A stretch of 22,241 nt of DNA from a virus. Shown one piece after another: positions 6,880-22,241 of the stretch. The position numbers and the translations under genes were made by a program. How positions within the stretch are numbered: the stretch's first letter is position 1; each line of letters opens with the position of its first letter. The stretch spans positions 1 to 22,241 of the IMG/VR virus record IMGVR_UViG_3300021131_000053. The stretch is one strand, 5' to 3'. The notes under the pieces were generated by a model. That model saw only the letters and a list, made by a program, of their open reading frames with translations. It was not told the DNA's origin and ran no database searches.

Positions 6880-7206
6880 ATGGCTGATGTAGATTTTATA
6901 TTAAAACCCATGGGCGACAAAATTGTTGTACGTCCGGATAAACGCACTCTAAGTACCGTAATTATTGTTGACAACAAAGAAGCCGACAATATGGGTACTG
7001 TTGTCGCTGTAGGCCCTGGAAGAAGAATAAACGGGCGCCGTGAAGCAATGCCGGTACAAGTCGGTGATTACATAAGATTTGGGACAATGAGTAAAGATGC
7101 CCAAGAAGAATATTTAAAGTTCACAGAATACTTCCACGACAAAGAACGTTATTTAATCATGTCATGGCAAGACGTTTGTTTTACTACTGAAAAGGAAGAA
7201 GCATAA
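6880..7206 (+). CDS. GroES-like co-chaperonin (Cpn10)
   Basis: A 108-residue protein with the Cpn10 layout: PMGDKIVVRPD (residues 10-20), a mobile-loop region (about 21-38) with a hydrophobic IIV tripeptide at 28-30 where GroES has IVL, GTVVAVGPG at 39-47, then PVQVGDYIRFG (about 58-68), and a C-terminal ERYLIMSWQDV strand. E. coli GroES is 97 residues. The protein should form a heptameric lid on the host GroEL, as phage T4 gp31 does for its coat protein. That role is inference from the family and from its place ahead of the head genes. No GroEL gene is visible. GGAG precedes the start. The stop overlaps the next ATG. Confidence 0.85.
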   Translation: MADVDFILKPMGDKIVVRPDKRTLSTVIIVDNKEADNMGTVVAVGPGRRINGRREAMPVQVGDYIRFGTMSKDAQEEYLKFTEYFHDKERYLIMSWQDVCFTTEKEEA

Positions 7207-8014: not shown

Positions 8015-8256
8015 GTTTAGATACATTAAAACTAGAATTTAGCCATTCCGTACAGGAAATGGAAATCATCTTAGCTGGCCTTAAAAAGCTACCTATGGAA
8101 TTAGTAATGGAACTGTATGCCAAGCTTCATGCAAGCGCTAAACAGCAAGTAGATGACCATTTAGCGGTACAAGCACCAGCGATTAATCCTAGTGATATTA
8201 CAATTACATCCGAAGGTAACCCAGCATCAACAGAAGCTACTACAACTGTTGCGTAA
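8011..8256 (+). CDS. Hypothetical protein (81 aa)
   Basis: An 81-residue protein with two likely helices in its first 55 residues (LEFSHSVQEMEIILAGLKKL and LVMELYAKLHASAKQQVDDHL) and a Pro/Ser/Thr-rich flexible tail. It is acidic, unlike the lysine-rich genes just before it. No family recognised. The start overlaps the upstream stop, and AAAGGTAAG upstream gives a good ribosome binding site. Confidence 0.7.
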   Translation: MSLDTLKLEFSHSVQEMEIILAGLKKLPMELVMELYAKLHASAKQQVDDHLAVQAPAINPSDITITSEGNPASTEATTTVA

Positions 8257-8273
8257 ATACCACAAAAAGTATT

Positions 8274-8279
8274 TATAAT
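8274..8279 (+). promoter_or_regulatory. Possible -10 element before the packaging genes
   Basis: A perfect TATAAT lies nine bases before the TerS start codon. The nearest -35 candidate is TTGCGT (8249-8254) at a long 19-base spacing. Transcription from here would begin almost at the ATG. A six-base match in AT-rich DNA is easily fortuitous. Confidence 0.2.
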
Positions 8280-8287
8280 TCAAGAAT

Positions 8288-8593
8288 ATGGACGAACAAA
8301 CGAATAATTCAAGGGGTGGACAGCCTGGCAATAATAACGCCAGCAAGAATAAGCCATTCCTAGATGCTATGCGTAGGGCATTAGCCCAGAATCCCCAGAA
8401 GATTGCCAAGATAGTAGATAAGGTTCTTGACCAAGCAGAAGCCGGTGAAGCATGGGCCGTAAAAGAAGTAGCGGATAGACTGGATGGCAAGGCAATCGCC
8501 ATTCAAGAAATCCAAGGACCTAATGGTGCTGAACTAAAGACTGGCGTAGTAATAACGTTCGTGGAACCTGATGGAACCATCACAACAGATTAA
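8288..8593 (+). CDS. terS: Terminase small subunit, putative
   Basis: A 101-residue protein directly before and overlapping the large terminase by 23 bases. The N-terminal RGGQPGNNNASKNKPFLDAM (residues 9-28) is a recurring opening of phage small terminase-like proteins. The middle (about 36-67) is helical, and EAWAVKEVADRLDGK (54-68) is the usual conserved helix. The C-terminal 30 residues form a short beta tail (VVITFVEPDGTITT). TerS proteins assemble as rings that recognise phage DNA and hand it to TerL. The assignment rests on position and the GGQPGN/ADRLDGK signature. There is no strong ribosome binding site before the start. Confidence 0.7.
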   Translation: MDEQTNNSRGGQPGNNNASKNKPFLDAMRRALAQNPQKIAKIVDKVLDQAEAGEAWAVKEVADRLDGKAIAIQEIQGPNGAELKTGVVITFVEPDGTITTD

Positions 8594-9857
8594 AGATGCC
8601 ATTGCTAGGGAACGGTTTCCAGCCAAATTAAGATGCTTATTTGAACCCAAGCAATCACGCTATAGAATCCTGTACGGTGGACGTGGGGGTGCAAAATCTT
8701 GGGGAATTTCTCGTGCGCTACTGATTAAAGGCATTAAAAGCCCTATTCGTGTTCTATGCGCCCGTGAGTTCCAAACCAGCATTAAAGATTCTGTTCACAA
8801 GCTATTAAGTGACCAAATCTATGCCATGGGATTAGAAGCCCATTATGAAATCACCCAAAACACCATTAGGGGTATCAACGGTTCGGAGTTCATCTTTGCC
8901 GGCATTAAGAACAATATCAACGGTCTAAAATCTATCGAAGGAATTGATATTTGCTGGGTAGAGGAAGCCAACAACGTTAGTTCCCTTTCCTGGGGGGTTT
9001 TAATACCTACCATCCGTAAAGAAAACAGCGAAATCTGGATAAGCTTTAACCCAGAACTACCCACGGATGAAACCTATAAGCGCTTTGTATTAAATCCGCC
9101 GGATAACGCCATTGTTACTAAGCTTAATTGGAGTGACAACCCATACTTTCCAGAAGTGTTGGATATAGAACGCCGACAACTTCAATCACGTGACCCAGAA
9201 GCATATAACAACGTATGGGAAGGTATTCCACGCCAGACTATTGACGGTGCTATCTTTGCCAAAGAAATGACTATGGCTGAATTACAAGGCCGCATTACAA
9301 ACGTGCCATACGATGCAACCAAAGGCGTTCATATTGTGTTCGATTTGGGGTGGAATGACCATACGGCCGTGTGGTTTGTCCAGCTATTCCCAACTGAAAC
9401 ACGGCTTATTCGATACCTGGAAGATAGACAGCAGACGATTAGCTATTGGTTGGCAAAAATCCAGTCATTTGGTTACATGATTGATACCATCTGGTTGCCA
9501 CACGATGCAAAAGCGAAGTCCTTAGGAACTGGTCGTTCCATAGAGGAAATTGTACGACAAACTGGTTTAATGACAAAAGTTCTAGACCGTGTTCCAGTTT
9601 CAGATTCGATTAATGCGGCACGAACAATCTTCAGCAAATGCTATTTTGATAGGCAAAATTGCGAAGAAGGCTTACAATGCTTAAGACATTACCGGTATGA
9701 TGTTGACCCCGAAACAAAACAGTTTAGTCAGAAGCCACTTCACGACCATTACAGTAACGGGGCCGATGCCTTCAGGTACATAGGATTAATGATTAACGAA
9801 CCAAGGAAGCCGCCCAAAAGGACGGTTCCCCACGTTCAATCTAGTTGGATGGGATAA
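8571..9857 (+). CDS. terL: Terminase large subunit
   Basis: A 428-residue packaging motor. The ATPase domain has Walker A GGRGGAKS at 36-43, Walker B with catalytic Glu in IDICWVEEA (125-133), and a coupling segment ending ISFNPE (157-162). The nuclease domain (about 250-405) has an RNase H-like acidic set: D258 in VFDLGWND, D312 in PHDAK, and D399 in SNGADAFRY. The family is the PBSX/Terminase_3-like group, and the length is normal. It cuts concatemeric DNA and drives it through the portal encoded next. The start overlaps terS; GTGGA lies just upstream. It is followed by the portal gene after three bases. Confidence 0.95.
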   Translation: MEPSQQIKDAIARERFPAKLRCLFEPKQSRYRILYGGRGGAKSWGISRALLIKGIKSPIRVLCAREFQTSIKDSVHKLLSDQIYAMGLEAHYEITQNTIRGINGSEFIFAGIKNNINGLKSIEGIDICWVEEANNVSSLSWGVLIPTIRKENSEIWISFNPELPTDETYKRFVLNPPDNAIVTKLNWSDNPYFPEVLDIERRQLQSRDPEAYNNVWEGIPRQTIDGAIFAKEMTMAELQGRITNVPYDATKGVHIVFDLGWNDHTAVWFVQLFPTETRLIRYLEDRQQTISYWLAKIQSFGYMIDTIWLPHDAKAKSLGTGRSIEEIVRQTGLMTKVLDRVPVSDSINAARTIFSKCYFDRQNCEEGLQCLRHYRYDVDPETKQFSQKPLHDHYSNGADAFRYIGLMINEPRKPPKRTVPHVQSSWMG

Positions 9858-16000: not shown

Positions 16001-18694
16001 ATGACTACACCATCAAATTCTGCGGTACAGAATTTACTGCCGGTTCAAGCGTATTTTAACGTTGACGGAAGTTTTAATACATTTATTGGTCAAGGTAAAC
16101 CTTTTTACGCTACTTCTAACCCTGTTCAATCAGGTTTAGCAATCACTAATAGTACGTTAGATAGTAGTCCAATTGGTTCAATTACACCTTCTACTGGTGT
16201 TTTTACCAATATTGCTACAACTACTGGAACAATCAGCACAAATGCTTCAGGTGCAACAGATATTGTCAATTTATTAACTTTGCAATCATATGCCGCTGGC
16301 ATTAGTTGGAAAAACCCTGTTACTGCGGCGACAACTACAAACATTACATTGTCAGGACTGCAAACAGTTGATACTGTTTCATTAGTAGCTGGCAATACAG
16401 TATTAGTAAAAAACCAAACTAATAGCGCACAAAATGGTATTTATCAAGTAAATAGTGGCGCATGGACTTATGCTTTAGGTTCAACAACATGGTCGCAATA
16501 TGTTAGCGCATTAGTGTTTGTTGAATATGGTACACAAGCTGGTTCTGCATGGTATTGCACAGCACAACCAGGTGGAACGCTTGGTACTACTGCAATGACT
16601 TGGAGTAATTTTAGCGTTTCAACAACTTATTCTGCTGGTACAGGTTTAACCCTTACAGGTTATGTATTTAGCATTACACCAGTAGGAACTGCTGGTACTT
16701 ATGGTTCAGCATCTAGCGTTCCTGTATTGACAACTAATGCAAGCGGTCAAGTATCAAGCGTAACTAATACTTCTATTGCTATTAATGGCAATCAAATTAC
16801 TTCTGGAACAGTTGGTTCTAGCTATATTAGCGGTTCATATACCGGCATTACTGGCGTTGGTACGCTAACTGCTGGAACATGGAACGCTGGCGTTATAGGC
16901 GCTTCTTATGGCGGTACAGGTGTTGCTGGTACTCTTACAGGCGTTCTATATGGTAATGGCACAAGCGCTTATACCGTAGCAACTGCGGCTCAATTAGTAT
17001 CTGCAATCGGTACAACTGCTGTAACCAATGCTACTAATGCTACAAATGCAACAACCTCAACCAATTTGGCTGGCGGTGCGGCTGGTTCATTACCTTATCA
17101 ATCAGGTAGCGGTGCAACTACATTCTTGGCCGCTGGTTCAAATGGTCAATATTTAACATTATCTGGCGGTGTTCCAACCTGGGGTTCGTTAGGTAGCATT
17201 GTTTCTACATTTAGTGCTGGAACAACTGGATTTACGCCTTCTACAGCTACTTCTGGCGCTATAACACTTGCTGGTACATTAAATATAGCTAACGGTGGAA
17301 CAGGTATTACTTCTTTTGGTACTGGCGTACAAACTGCATTAGGACAAGCTGTAACCGGTTCAGGTGGTATTGTTTTAGCAACTAGCCCAACTTTAATAAC
17401 ACCAGCATTAGGCACTCCATCATCTGCAACCCTTACAAATGCTACTGGTTTGCCAGTATCTACAGGTATTAGCGGATTGGGTACGGGTGTTGCTACAGCA
17501 TTAGCTGTAAACATAGGTTCTGCTGGCGCTGTTATAACTAACGGCGGTGCATTAGGCACACCATCAAGCGGTGTTGCTACAAACTTAACCGGTACTGCAT
17601 CTGGCCTTTCTATTGGTGGAAATGCGGCCACAGCAACTACAGCAACAAACGCAACAAATACTGCTATAACCGATAACACCAGTTCAAGTTCTACTTGGTA
17701 CCCAACAATTGTTTCATCAACAAGTGGTAATTTGCCACAAACTACATCATCTACAAAATTAAGTTTTGTTCCTTCTACTGGTGTTTTAAGTGCTACTACA
17801 TTTAGCGGAAGCATTGCTGGTTCTAACGTATCAGGCAATATTTCAGGAAATGCGGCTAACGTAACCGGTACAGTAGCAGTAGCTAATGGCGGTACAGGAT
17901 TAACTTCTACTCCATCCAACGGTCAAATTGATATTGGTAATGGTTCAGGATTTACTAGAACCACTTTAACTGCTGGTACAGGCATTACGATTACAAATAG
18001 TGCTGGCGGTATCACGATTGCGGCTGGTGCTTCCGGCTCTACTTACGCAGTTCAATACTTTGTTGTAGGCGGTGGTGGCTCAGGCGGTGGATTCAATCCA
18101 GGAACTAACTGGGGTGGTGGTGGAAATGGTGGATATGTTTCAAGTGGGTCATTAACCCTTACACAAAGCACCGCATATACAGTTACAGTAGGTGCTGGTG
18201 GTGCTGGAGTTGGAAACAATTCAACAGGAAATACTGGTGGAAGTTCAGTATTTGGAAGCATTACTTCTGCTGGCGGTGGTGGTGGTAACACCAATAATGG
18301 TTCAGGAACAGGCGCTGGAAATCTATATGCTTCACCAGGTAGTTCATTAGGCGGTCCAGGAGTTTATTATTTTAGCGGCACTTTTGCTGGTGGCGGTCAA
18401 GCTGGAAATACTTCAGGTGCGGCAACTACATTAGATGACGGCGGATGGTACGGCGGTGGAGCAACTGGCGGTGGTAGTGGTCCTTATACTATTTACCCAA
18501 GATTTAATAGCGGCGGTGGTGGTGCTGGTTCTTATTCAAATGGTGGAACTTCACAACCTGGTGGTAGCGGTGCAGTAATTATTTGCGTACCAACTGCCAA
18601 TTATTCAGGAACAACTACTGGAAGCCCTAGAATTACTTACATGGATGGTTATGTAATGCTTTACTTTAAATCTTCAGGGAGTTACACAGCATGA
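16001..18694 (+). CDS. Modular tail fibre / host-recognition protein (897 aa)
   Basis: A long low-complexity adhesin built from modules. Residues 11-32 are the NLLPVQA...GQG docking segment. About 97-208 is a fibre module common in phages (NITLSGLQTVDTVSLVAGNTVLVKNQT in pieces, then NGIYQVNSGAW). About 210-660 is a repetitive shaft with the recurring NGGTG motif (near 16911, 17291 and 17885), TSPTLITPALGTPSSATLTNATG and NATNATNAT. From about 690 to 860 a glycine-rich domain begins with FVVGGGGSGGG, reminiscent of polyglycine receptor-binding tips of phage adhesins such as S16 gp38, and a short YMDGYVMLYFKSS end follows. It likely trimerises and binds the host surface. It overlaps the next gene by four bases. 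Confidence 0.88.
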   Translation: MTTPSNSAVQNLLPVQAYFNVDGSFNTFIGQGKPFYATSNPVQSGLAITNSTLDSSPIGSITPSTGVFTNIATTTGTISTNASGATDIVNLLTLQSYAAGISWKNPVTAATTTNITLSGLQTVDTVSLVAGNTVLVKNQTNSAQNGIYQVNSGAWTYALGSTTWSQYVSALVFVEYGTQAGSAWYCTAQPGGTLGTTAMTWSNFSVSTTYSAGTGLTLTGYVFSITPVGTAGTYGSASSVPVLTTNASGQVSSVTNTSIAINGNQITSGTVGSSYISGSYTGITGVGTLTAGTWNAGVIGASYGGTGVAGTLTGVLYGNGTSAYTVATAAQLVSAIGTTAVTNATNATNATTSTNLAGGAAGSLPYQSGSGATTFLAAGSNGQYLTLSGGVPTWGSLGSIVSTFSAGTTGFTPSTATSGAITLAGTLNIANGGTGITSFGTGVQTALGQAVTGSGGIVLATSPTLITPALGTPSSATLTNATGLPVSTGISGLGTGVATALAVNIGSAGAVITNGGALGTPSSGVATNLTGTASGLSIGGNAATATTATNATNTAITDNTSSSSTWYPTIVSSTSGNLPQTTSSTKLSFVPSTGVLSATTFSGSIAGSNVSGNISGNAANVTGTVAVANGGTGLTSTPSNGQIDIGNGSGFTRTTLTAGTGITITNSAGGITIAAGASGSTYAVQYFVVGGGGSGGGFNPGTNWGGGGNGGYVSSGSLTLTQSTAYTVTVGAGGAGVGNNSTGNTGGSSVFGSITSAGGGGGNTNNGSGTGAGNLYASPGSSLGGPGVYYFSGTFAGGGQAGNTSGAATTLDDGGWYGGGATGGGSGPYTIYPRFNSGGGGAGSYSNGGTSQPGGSGAVIICVPTANYSGTTTGSPRITYMDGYVMLYFKSSGSYTA

Positions 18695-19326: not shown

Positions 19327-20298
19327 ATGGCCCAGCCAATTGACATTATTAGCGGTGCGTTAAAAGACATTGGCGCTTTAGCGGCTGGGGAAACACCAAC
19401 TGCTGATGCCGTACAAGATGCGTTTTCAATGTTAAACGACATGGTTGACCAATGGTCTAACGAATCCATGATGGTTAGCTATAAGACTGAAATCATTTTT
19501 CCAATTACACCAGGTCAAATTCAATACACAATCGGTCCTGGCGGCACAATTGGCGCTAACTTTACTGGTTCTATCAGCGGCAACGTATTAACTGTTACTG
19601 GCATTACCCAAGGTGCTTTGGCATTAGGGCAAACCCTAAGTGGAACAGGAATTGCAAATGGTACAACTATTACTGCGTTTGGTACGGGCGCCGGTGGCAA
19701 CGTTAATGATAATGGCACATATACTGTTAGTATCAGCCAAACGGTTTCTTCAACAGCCATTAATGCTTATTATCAGCGCCCTCTTGCTATTCAGTCTAGC
19801 TTTGTGCGAATTAATACTAATAGTAACGGTACTCCTATTGTTAACGGGGGTTTGGACTATCCCGTTGCAGTCCTCAATCTTGAAAATTATGAAATGATTG
19901 GTTTAAAGACCTTATCAGGTCCTTGGCCAAAAGCAATGTATTACCAGCCATCTGACCCATTGGGTAACATTTTTGTATGGCCAAATCCATCCCAAGGTGA
20001 AATGCACATTTTTGCTGACACATTGTTTACACGTTATGGAACGGTTTATGACAATATTGTGTTGCCACAGGGCTACGTATTGGCCCTTAGATGGTGTCTT
20101 GCCGAACGTTTGGCACCTATGTATGGAAAGAATGACCCAACGGCTATGGCAATGATTAGCAAGTTTGCGGCACAAGCAAAAGCAACTTTAAAACGTACTA
20201 ATATGCGCCCAATCCAAGCTTCAACATTTAGTGATGCTTTGTTGGTTGGACGTCAAAAAGATGCTGGATGGATATTAACCGGCGGTTTCTTAAGATAA
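19327..20298 (+). CDS. P22 gp4-like head-tail adaptor with an inserted beta module
   Basis: A 323-residue protein. The N-terminal [42 protein letters not shown] (in pieces, residues 5-46) and YTIGPGG (67-73) match the P22 gp4 tail-accessory type that plugs below the portal. After an insert the family resumes at [15 protein letters not shown] (148-162), and the C-terminal part holds [16 protein letters not shown] and GGFLR. P22 gp4 is only 166 residues. The excess comes partly from the beta module at 79-147, which also occurs in the next gene. The gene starts one base after the previous stop, behind GGTGGA. Confidence 0.85.
19561..19767 (+). repeat. Shuffled beta module, copy A (in gp4-like protein)
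   Basis: Encodes residues 79-147: [13 protein letters not shown], then [21 protein letters not shown] and [18 protein letters not shown]. It interrupts the gp4-like continuity between YTIGPGG and the [12 protein letters not shown] segment. The pattern F-[TI]-G-S-x2-G-x2-LT[VI] ... GQ ... G[TV]-x-[TV]IT-x2-G ... G-[TS]Y-T[VI] ... [SG]-[QT]QT recurs in the next gene. The DNA copies are diverged, so this is not a recent duplication. Confidence 0.85.
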
Positions 20299-20308
20299 AA
20301 GGGGCTAT

Positions 20309-22241
20309 ATGCCGGATTTTGGATTTATTGGCCCATCATACGAAGCCCCGTCCATCTATCAAGATGCACAGGAATGTATTAACTTTCGTCCTGAAACTGA
20401 CCCATTAAAACAACCTGGGCAGAATGGCGTAGTGGCTTTATATCCCACGCCAGGACTAACTGTTGTAGCCCAATTATTTAATCAAGATGAAGTACGTGGT
20501 ATGCGTACTGTATCTGGTGGTCAATATTGCGTTACGGTATGTGGTCAATATGTATATGTTTTAACGTCTACTTTAACGCCTACTTTAGTAGGTACTTTAA
20601 ATAGCAGTTCTGGTCATGTAGGAATTACAGATAACGGCCAATCTGTTTATATTACAGATGGTTCTTATCGTTATGCTTGGCGTATTTCTAACCCAGCTTC
20701 AGCCCAATTTATTGGTTCAGTAACAGGGACAACCCTAACTGTCACATTAATGAAATCCGGCACGATTGCCGTAGGACAACAATTATTTGGTCTTGGTGTA
20801 ACACCAGAAACCATTATTACTGGTCTTGGCACCGGTACAGGCGGCGTTGGTACATACACAATTAATTTAAGTCAAACCGAAACATCAGAAGTGTTCAATT
20901 CTTCTGCAACAGCCGCTACCTTTACTGGTTCACTTGCCGGTGGAATTTTGACAATCAGCGCTATTTCTAGTGGTACCATTTATCCAGGACAAACCATTCA
21001 AGGTTCTACAGTAAACGCTGGAACAGTTATTACAGCTTATGGTGGCAATACAGTATTAAGTAACAGTATTGTTACAGGCGGCACTGGTTATGCAATTAAT
21101 GACATTGTTACAGCAATTGGCGGTATTTATACTGTTCCAGTTAGTTATACGGTAACTGCAATTAGCGGAAGTGGTGTTATTACAGGGTTAACCCTAACTA
21201 CTTCTGGCCAATCTAATTCTTATAGTGTAGAACCTTCAAATCCAGTATCTTTTTCCACAAATGGAAATGGAACAGGTTTAACTTGTAATTTAACGTTTGG
21301 TACTGGTATTGGCGGAACAGGTAGCTATACAGTTAATGGCACACAAACTGTAACTTCTAGGACAATGTATGCGCTTAACTTTAGCGTTTTGCCATCTTCT
21401 GATGGCGCATTTACTGGTGGTACTGTTGTAGATATTGTTGATAACTATTTTGTTTATAACCGGCCTAATACCCAACAATGGGGATGTTCTAACATTCTTT
21501 CCCCCGTTTCCAATCAATTAAACTTTAGTTCCAAAGATGGCGCACCAGATAATTTGGTGTCTATTATTGTGTCAAACCGTGAAGTATTTTTGATGGGTGA
21601 AACATCATCTGAAGTATGGATTGATGCTGGTTTGTTTCCATTCCCATTCCAAAGGATTCCAGGAACCAATACCCAGCACGGTATTGCCGCCCCATTTAGT
21701 ATGGCTAGGATTGGCAATTCGTTTGCTTATGTAAGTCGCAATATTCGTGGCCAAGCGCAAATTATGATGATGAACGGCTATATTCCTACACGCATTTCTA
21801 CCCATGCTGTAGAAAACACGCTTGTGGACCAATATATTGAAGATGCGATTGCTTACACTTATCAGCTAGAAGGCCACGAAGTTTATGTAGTCACATTCCC
21901 AACTATAGATTTAACTTGGGCGTATGACATTTCTACAGGAATGTGGCATAAATGGCTTTCTGTTGACAATCAAAACGTTTTTCACAGACACCGTTCTAAT
22001 TGCCAAGCAAACTTCCAAAACATGAATTTGGTTGGCGATTACCAAAATGGTTTAATTTATATGTTGGACCAAGCTAATTACACCGACAATGGCAATGAAA
22101 TCCGCCGTGTTCGCAGATGCCCACATTTGATTAGTGACTACCAACGTGAATATTTTCACGAATTACAAATTTATTTTCAGCCAGGCGTAGGTCTTTCTAA
22201 TGGTCTTGCGGCTAACGAAGTGCCACAGGCTATGTTGCGTT
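20309..22241 (+). CDS. P22 gp10-like packaged-DNA stabilisation protein, 3' end beyond window
   Basis: Starts at ATG 20309 behind AAGGGG and stays open to the window edge (644 codons). The N-terminus PDFGFIGPSYEAPSIYQDAQECINFRPE (in pieces, 2-29) and later blocks NREVFLMGETSSEVWIDAG, FPFPFQRIPGTNTQHGIAAPFS, GQAQIMMMNGYIPTRISTHAVE and MWHKWLSVD match the P22 gp10 type, which closes the portal after packaging and binds gp4 and the tail. P22 gp10 is 472 residues; this one is much longer. The extra length is explained by two inserted beta modules at 134-197 and 205-355, the second itself interrupted. Confidence 0.88.
   Translation, partial: MPDFGFIGPSYEAPSIYQDAQECINFRPETDPLKQPGQNGVVALYPTPGLTVVAQLFNQDEVRGMRTVSGGQYCVTVCGQYVYVLTSTLTPTLVGTLNSSSGHVGITDNGQSVYITDGSYRYAWRISNPASAQFIGSVTGTTLTVTLMKSGTIAVGQQLFGLGVTPETIITGLGTGTGGVGTYTINLSQTETSEVFNSSATAATFTGSLAGGILTISAISSGTIYPGQTIQGSTVNAGTVITAYGGNTVLSNSIVTGGTGYAINDIVTAIGGIYTVPVSYTVTAISGSGVITGLTLTTSGQSNSYSVEPSNPVSFSTNGNGTGLTCNLTFGTGIGGTGSYTVNGTQTVTSRTMYALNFSVLPSSDGAFTGGTVVDIVDNYFVYNRPNTQQWGCSNILSPVSNQLNFSSKDGAPDNLVSIIVSNREVFLMGETSSEVWIDAGLFPFPFQRIPGTNTQHGIAAPFSMARIGNSFAYVSRNIRGQAQIMMMNGYIPTRISTHAVENTLVDQYIEDAIAYTYQLEGHEVYVVTFPTIDLTWAYDISTGMWHKWLSVDNQNVFHRHRSNCQANFQNMNLVGDYQNGLIYMLDQANYTDNGNEIRRVRRCPHLISDYQREYFHELQIYFQPGVGLSNGLAANEVPQAMLR
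20708..20899 (+). repeat. Shuffled beta module, copy B (in gp10-like protein)
   Basis: Encodes residues 134-197: FIGSVTGTTLTVTLM, then GQQLFGLGVTPETIITGLGTG, GTYTINLSQTETSEVFN. It has the same strand order and Gly positions as copy A in the upstream gene and copy C just downstream. Confidence 0.85.
20921..21373 (+). repeat. Shuffled beta module, copy C, split by another insertion
   Basis: Encodes residues 205-355. The first half is FTGSLAGGILTISAI ... GTVITAYG (205-245). The second half resumes as GTGIGGTGSYTVNGTQTVTSRTMYA (331-355). Copies A and B show the two halves should be contiguous. The 85 residues between them are a different domain. Confidence 0.8.
21044..21298 (+). other. Domain nested inside beta module copy C
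   Basis: About 85 residues (246-330) lying exactly between the ITAYG and GTGIGG halves of copy C. It reads IVTGGTGYAINDIVTAIGG, VPVSYTVTAISGSGVITGL, TTSGQSNSYSVEPSNPVSFS, then NGTGLTCNLTF. This GGTGY-x2-ND-V pattern with following beta strands is, as I recall, a separate module of phage structural proteins. The boundaries are set by comparison with copies A and B. Confidence 0.75.

Follow-up and report, generated by a model that had tools for sequence, protein, structure and literature searches.

The gp10-like nozzle protein of a P22-like podovirus carries two copies of a beta module, which we termed module A, and the second copy is interrupted at its ITAYG/GTGIGG hairpin by a different domain, module B. 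Comparison with related phages leaves little doubt about the insertion history: from no insert to two tandem A modules, and then to B inside the second A, with further nesting. The window, that is, the whole stretch of DNA analyzed, is 22,241 bases long and contains the complete IMG/VR record IMGVR_UViG_3300021131_000053. The gene order, terminase-portal-scaffold-coat-adaptor-gp10, with a P22-type coat and an SU10-type adaptor, matches the arrangement of P22 gp10-type phages. The gp10-like ORF starts at 20309 and its 3' end is lost at the end of the contig; the missing part was taken from a full-length copy, L003, which is 707 aa long and 96% identical.

The 644 residues encoded in the window (20309–22240) identify the protein as a gp10-like nozzle, or head closure Hc3, protein (phrog_578, E 1.5e-79). 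Residues 1–130 (20309–20698) are the N-terminal core, comprising part of the platform and the first propeller blades, as defined by the DSSP assignment of the model, alignment with P22 gp10 and conservation in gp10s that have no insert. The C-terminal core, residues 365–644 (21401–22240), contains the remaining propeller and platform part, as defined by a BLAST search with the core and the same P22 alignment. Between the two cores lie an intact copy of module A, A1 (residues 131–199; 20699–20905), and a split copy, A2, whose N-terminal part (residues 203–245; 20915–21043) and C-terminal part (residues 331–356; 21299–21376) flank module B (residues 246–330; 21044–21298). The gene immediately upstream encodes a 323-residue head-tail adaptor (19327–20298) of the SU10_adaptor family (PF24175, 30.5 bits, cut-off 27), which holds another copy of module A at residues 76–149 (19552–19773). 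All of these features are on the plus strand. Inserted beta domains are present in both rings, at 76–149 of the adaptor and at 131–199 and 203–356 of gp10. A second length-variable site is found near the C-terminus of gp10, after an FQPGVG motif (for example in L095, L144 and L196), where the sequence ranges from about 10 residues in L003 to several tens.

The first-pass annotation had described two copies of one beta module, the second split by an unrelated domain of about 85 residues, with both halves alignable to the two intact copies. Each of these points is borne out by shuffle tests, which keep composition and so control for the T/G-rich sequence. Module A is about 69 residues long. When residues 246–330 are removed, A2 aligns with A1 at z 13.3 (2000 shuffles) and with the adaptor copy at z 14.1, close to the z of 15.5 between A1 and the adaptor copy themselves. 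Single halves of A2 score z 5.1–12 against intact modules: the N-terminal part reaches 8.5 with A1 and 12.0 with the adaptor copy, and the C-terminal part 7.5 with A1. Module B shows no likeness to A in the same test (z 0.5–0.7). When the best single excision is sought without preset boundaries, 86 residues are removed, from 243/246 to 328/331, which gives the boundaries of B to within ±2 residues. The interval originally proposed, 20921–21373, corresponds to residues 205–355 of the ORF and is correct, and its split boundaries agree with the excision search to within a few residues. Because 131 distinct insert sequences, drawn from many metagenomes, show the split arrangement, it is not an assembly error.

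The AlphaFold model of L003 gp10 has a mean pLDDT of 87 and a pTM of 0.86, with block means of 78–97 over residues 131–357. The strands of A1 (132–151, 157–160, 169–172 and 181–200) recur in A2, at an offset of +71 before B (203–222, 229–231 and 239–243) and of +71+85 after it (337–354, where strands 337–341 and 347–354 match A1 181–200). In a structure search, the model displays the platform and beta-propeller fold, aligning with P22 gp10 (8eap_D) over 447 of 471 residues with a Z score of 38.0 and an rmsd of 2.7. The Sf6, Pan3 and Pam1 homologues also align with the core, as do, less closely, the SU10 and crAss001 nozzles. At 471 residues versus 707, P22 gp10 is too short to contain 131–357, indicating that the insert lies outside the propeller core and is not part of one continuous propeller, an arrangement named beforehand as one that would overturn the nesting. 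By strand counting on a single-chain model, from which both blade and face were assigned, the insertion site is probably the hairpin that joins strands three and four of blade 2 and probably lies on the outer edge of the propeller. Neither A nor B has a match above the cut-off in a sequence and profile search of the PDB or a family above the cut-off in Pfam, which does not show that either is a new fold.

Among relatives, we sorted the 298 distinct sequences between the N- and C-terminal cores by insert length, and they fall into discrete classes with no intermediate lengths between them. Seventy-two have no insert, only 11–20 residues (a linker of about 15), and 87 have the intact A-A tandem (145–155 residues). 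The 231–243-residue class contains 136 sequences, 131 with B inside A2 and five with a different module, C, in another loop of A2. The remaining three are 310–328 residues long. Two of these, L095 and a sequence shared by L123 and L129, carry a further module, D, inside B; in the L095 model, the A2 strands after the insert are shifted by +71+174, the length of B plus D, and D, itself poorly modelled, follows the third strand of B and precedes the fourth. Written with nesting in brackets, the observed classes are no insert, A-A, A-A[B], A-A[C] and A-A[B[D]]. In the third of the longest sequences (L456, ORF 3041+, residues 132–273), an A-like domain interrupts A1 at its hairpin, and A2 holds B. 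Distant named phages, Rhodoferax P26218, PBR31 and PAE2, also have no insert at the site. A search for gp10s with zero, one or two A modules had been proposed; zero and two are both found, and none of the 298 distinct inserts has a single A, so the first step is visible only as a transition from none to A-A.

The existence of no-insert and intact A-A gp10s in related phages confirms that the A modules are insertions in gp10. A tree built from the cores alone separates the no-insert from the A-carrying gp10s with a support of 100, contrary to the idea that the split form is ancestral, and A-A is kept across a whole clade. In a tree of the modules, the adaptor copies, A1 and A2 each fall on one side of a branch (supports 75, 97 and 91, moderate values from an alignment of few columns), and split and intact A2 copies group together on one side of one branch. 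Together with the intact A-A relatives, this grouping places the insertion of B after the formation of A2. In quick trees, a single clade of all B carriers is not rejected (p 0.60) and scores slightly better. The initial quick tree asked for at least three changes of B, but given this result we do not claim repeated gains. A single origin of C is likewise not rejected (p 0.67), whereas a single clade for D in gp10 is rejected (p 0.019), indicating either two separate entries of D at one spot or its transfer by recombination.

In nearly all these phages the adaptor has module A at a single position, and this includes phages whose gp10 lacks an insert: an A-bearing ORF lies just upstream of 57 of the 81 no-insert gp10s. 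Judging from this distribution, A was probably present in the adaptor before it entered gp10. Of the original proposal that the order of events can be read from the sequence, A before B holds; the entry of A needs correcting, as it is seen in gp10 only as a pair and the module is probably older in the adaptor. The adaptor loop is empty in Rhodoferax P26218 and others (L224, L226, L229 and L230), and some adaptors, about 400 aa long, carry a tandem A-A. Recent copying of A from the adaptor of the same genome was considered and dropped, as modules are no more identical within a genome than between genomes, leaving no visible trace of recent copying or gene conversion. Named phages yielded no match when searched with A alone, probably because the BLAST low-complexity filter masks it.

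The inserted modules B and D have relatives elsewhere. B is related to the head decoration family phrog_9703, and its closest named relatives are parts of Hoc-type and SGNH hydrolase proteins of Enterobacter and Erwinia phages. Six of 12 B members match Gp18_dom_I (PF22639) weakly (best E 0.00052), at no more than 14.2 bits on re-scanning against a cut-off of 27. Hits to antibody light chains, none better than E 0.01, were attributed to composition and discarded. The nearest families of D are virion structural and tail fibre families. D also occurs, 70% identical, in a fibre-like 1529-residue ORF of the same genome as the gp10, among NTAVGYQAL-type repeats; the D of the other lineage is 65% identical.

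Purifying selection maintains all the modules measured. When 126 close pairs are pooled, pN/pS is 0.29 in A1, 0.21 in the A2 flanks and 0.24 in B, compared to 0.21 in the N-terminal core and 0.15 (0.147) in the C-terminal core. These values give no sign of an arms race or of hypervariable receptor binding.

On balance, the best overall explanation is probably a nozzle that has grown outward by stepwise accretion of domains. The outward edge of the gp10 propeller would be the site of accretion. The series itself is shown by the relatives and proceeds from no insert to two tandem A modules, to B in the A2 hairpin and, in some relatives, to D inside B; in other relatives, C has entered another A2 loop or an A-like domain has entered A1. 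Every step places a beta domain in a surface hairpin of the prior domain, which leaves the gp10 core intact. The modules may project outward beside the A module of the neighbouring adaptor ring. There they may serve as nozzle or fibre-contact domains, as in SU10, T7 and crAss001, lengthening the tail tip, carrying fibres or contacting the cell surface during docking. They may also be drawn from a pool of virion-surface modules common to fibre and Hoc-type genes, with recombination as the means of spread. Taken together, these two functional proposals, contact domains and a shared pool, have at most about an even chance of being right. It is conceivable, at somewhat worse than even odds, that the outer hairpin of the propeller and the hairpin of module A are general ports for recursive insertion of surface modules, building a tail-tip appendage.

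Insertion and nesting have precedents in other tail proteins. The P22 gp10, Sf6 gp8 and Pam1 needle head proteins share the platform and beta-propeller (Z 33–38) and a similar gene order after coat and adaptor, but P22 gp10 has no domain at the insertion site. In the SU10 nozzle gp17, extra Ig-like domains lie between blades 2 and 3, away from the channel; the nozzle has four domains, matches the L003 model with a Z score of 23, and is not described as nested (PMC9509320). The crAss001 muzzle gp44 has one domain between blades 2 and 3 and a second, Ig-like one in blade 3 that itself contains insertions, so that the arrangement is nested; unlike the protein studied here, it is about 1360 residues long and has other domains, and the portions of that report available to us describe no stepwise series of relatives (PMC10172136). 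Compared with these placements at blades 2–3, our insert follows the third strand of the second blade, by strand count only. In T7, beta domains are added on the outer surface of both the gp12 nozzle and the gp11 adaptor (PMC6702177); the T7 nozzle dock, in contrast to the insert described here, is placed between the end of the propeller and the platform, and no sequence relation of module A to the T7 docks was found. A further parallel for nesting is the T4 tail sheath protein gp18, in which domain I lies in II, II in III and III in IV, and domain I faces outward and binds retracted long tail fibres (PMC3004832). It is a different protein in a different assembly, and the likeness of B to its domain I is weak.

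Four other readings were weighed. The exposed modules could serve for host or carbohydrate contact, as the first-pass annotation suggested, binding capsule, LPS or other glycans and being swapped to alter adsorption, as might be expected from the Hoc-type and SGNH hydrolase relatives of B, the sharing of D between gp10 and a fibre-like protein, and a site probably at the outer edge. We regard this as unlikely, because pN/pS in A1, A2 and B (0.21–0.29) stays within twofold of that of the C-terminal core and none of the modules has a hit at curated level in Pfam, whether to carbohydrate-binding families or to any other. Roles in extending the nozzle or docking fibres suit the observations equally well. 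Equally doubtful is a fibre dock, in which the adaptor A and the gp10 A-A jointly clamp a tail fibre. The T7 fibre is held between paired docks on adaptor and nozzle, and the P22 and Sf6 adaptors have no dock (PMC6702177, PMC9509320); here both rings bear an inserted beta domain. However, the many no-insert gp10s preceded by an A-bearing ORF indicate that a paired dock is not obligatory, and no co-varying fibre gene was found.

The modules could also be selfish or neutral passengers that do little, spread by recombination, perhaps via homing endonucleases between adaptor and gp10. In 19 dereplicated genomes the gene directly upstream of gp10 is an HNH or GIY-YIG gene, and D is found at the same site in two lineages, but purifying selection and the retention of A-A in a whole clade make this improbable. 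Least plausible, to the point of being nearly negligible, is that there was no insertion and that 131–357 is an old, integral part of gp10, modular in look only. T/G-rich low complexity might mislead, and the split form is common in the clade; against this, the P22 gp10 structure is covered without 131–357, the shuffles account for composition, and no-insert and A-A relatives exist, the former already contradicting this reading unless they are losses.

Stepwise outward accretion, the reading we prefer, differs from the precedents in that the series is still extant. As a rule, nested insertion is deduced from one structure at a time, as for T4 gp18 and the crAss001 muzzle, whereas here one clade holds nearly every stage, empty sites included, so that the order, recurrence and fitness effect of each insertion become measurable. 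A channel-sealing protein enlarged by about half at one hairpin also suggests that podovirus nozzles have a site tolerant of such growth.

Several additional features were observed in these genomes. Free-standing HNH or GIY-YIG genes directly upstream of gp10 (L015, L024, L139, L190, L222 and others) may drive recombination of this region. Just 3' of gp10, L003 encodes a 281-residue protein (8174–9019) with a C-terminal SET domain (Pfam E 2e-9), apparently an uncommon occurrence in the tail region of a podovirus. In the window, 16001–18694 encodes a fibre-like protein of 897 residues with a C-terminal Gly_rich_2 domain (E 3.4e-9), a candidate receptor-binding protein, and 6880–7206 encodes a GroES-like co-chaperonin (phrog_3188, E 2.2e-11). 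The A-A[B] gp10 also turns up in L470 and L471, contigs that binning placed with an uncultured beta proteobacterium and with a Methylococcales MAG, which is either a hint of the hosts or a binning error.
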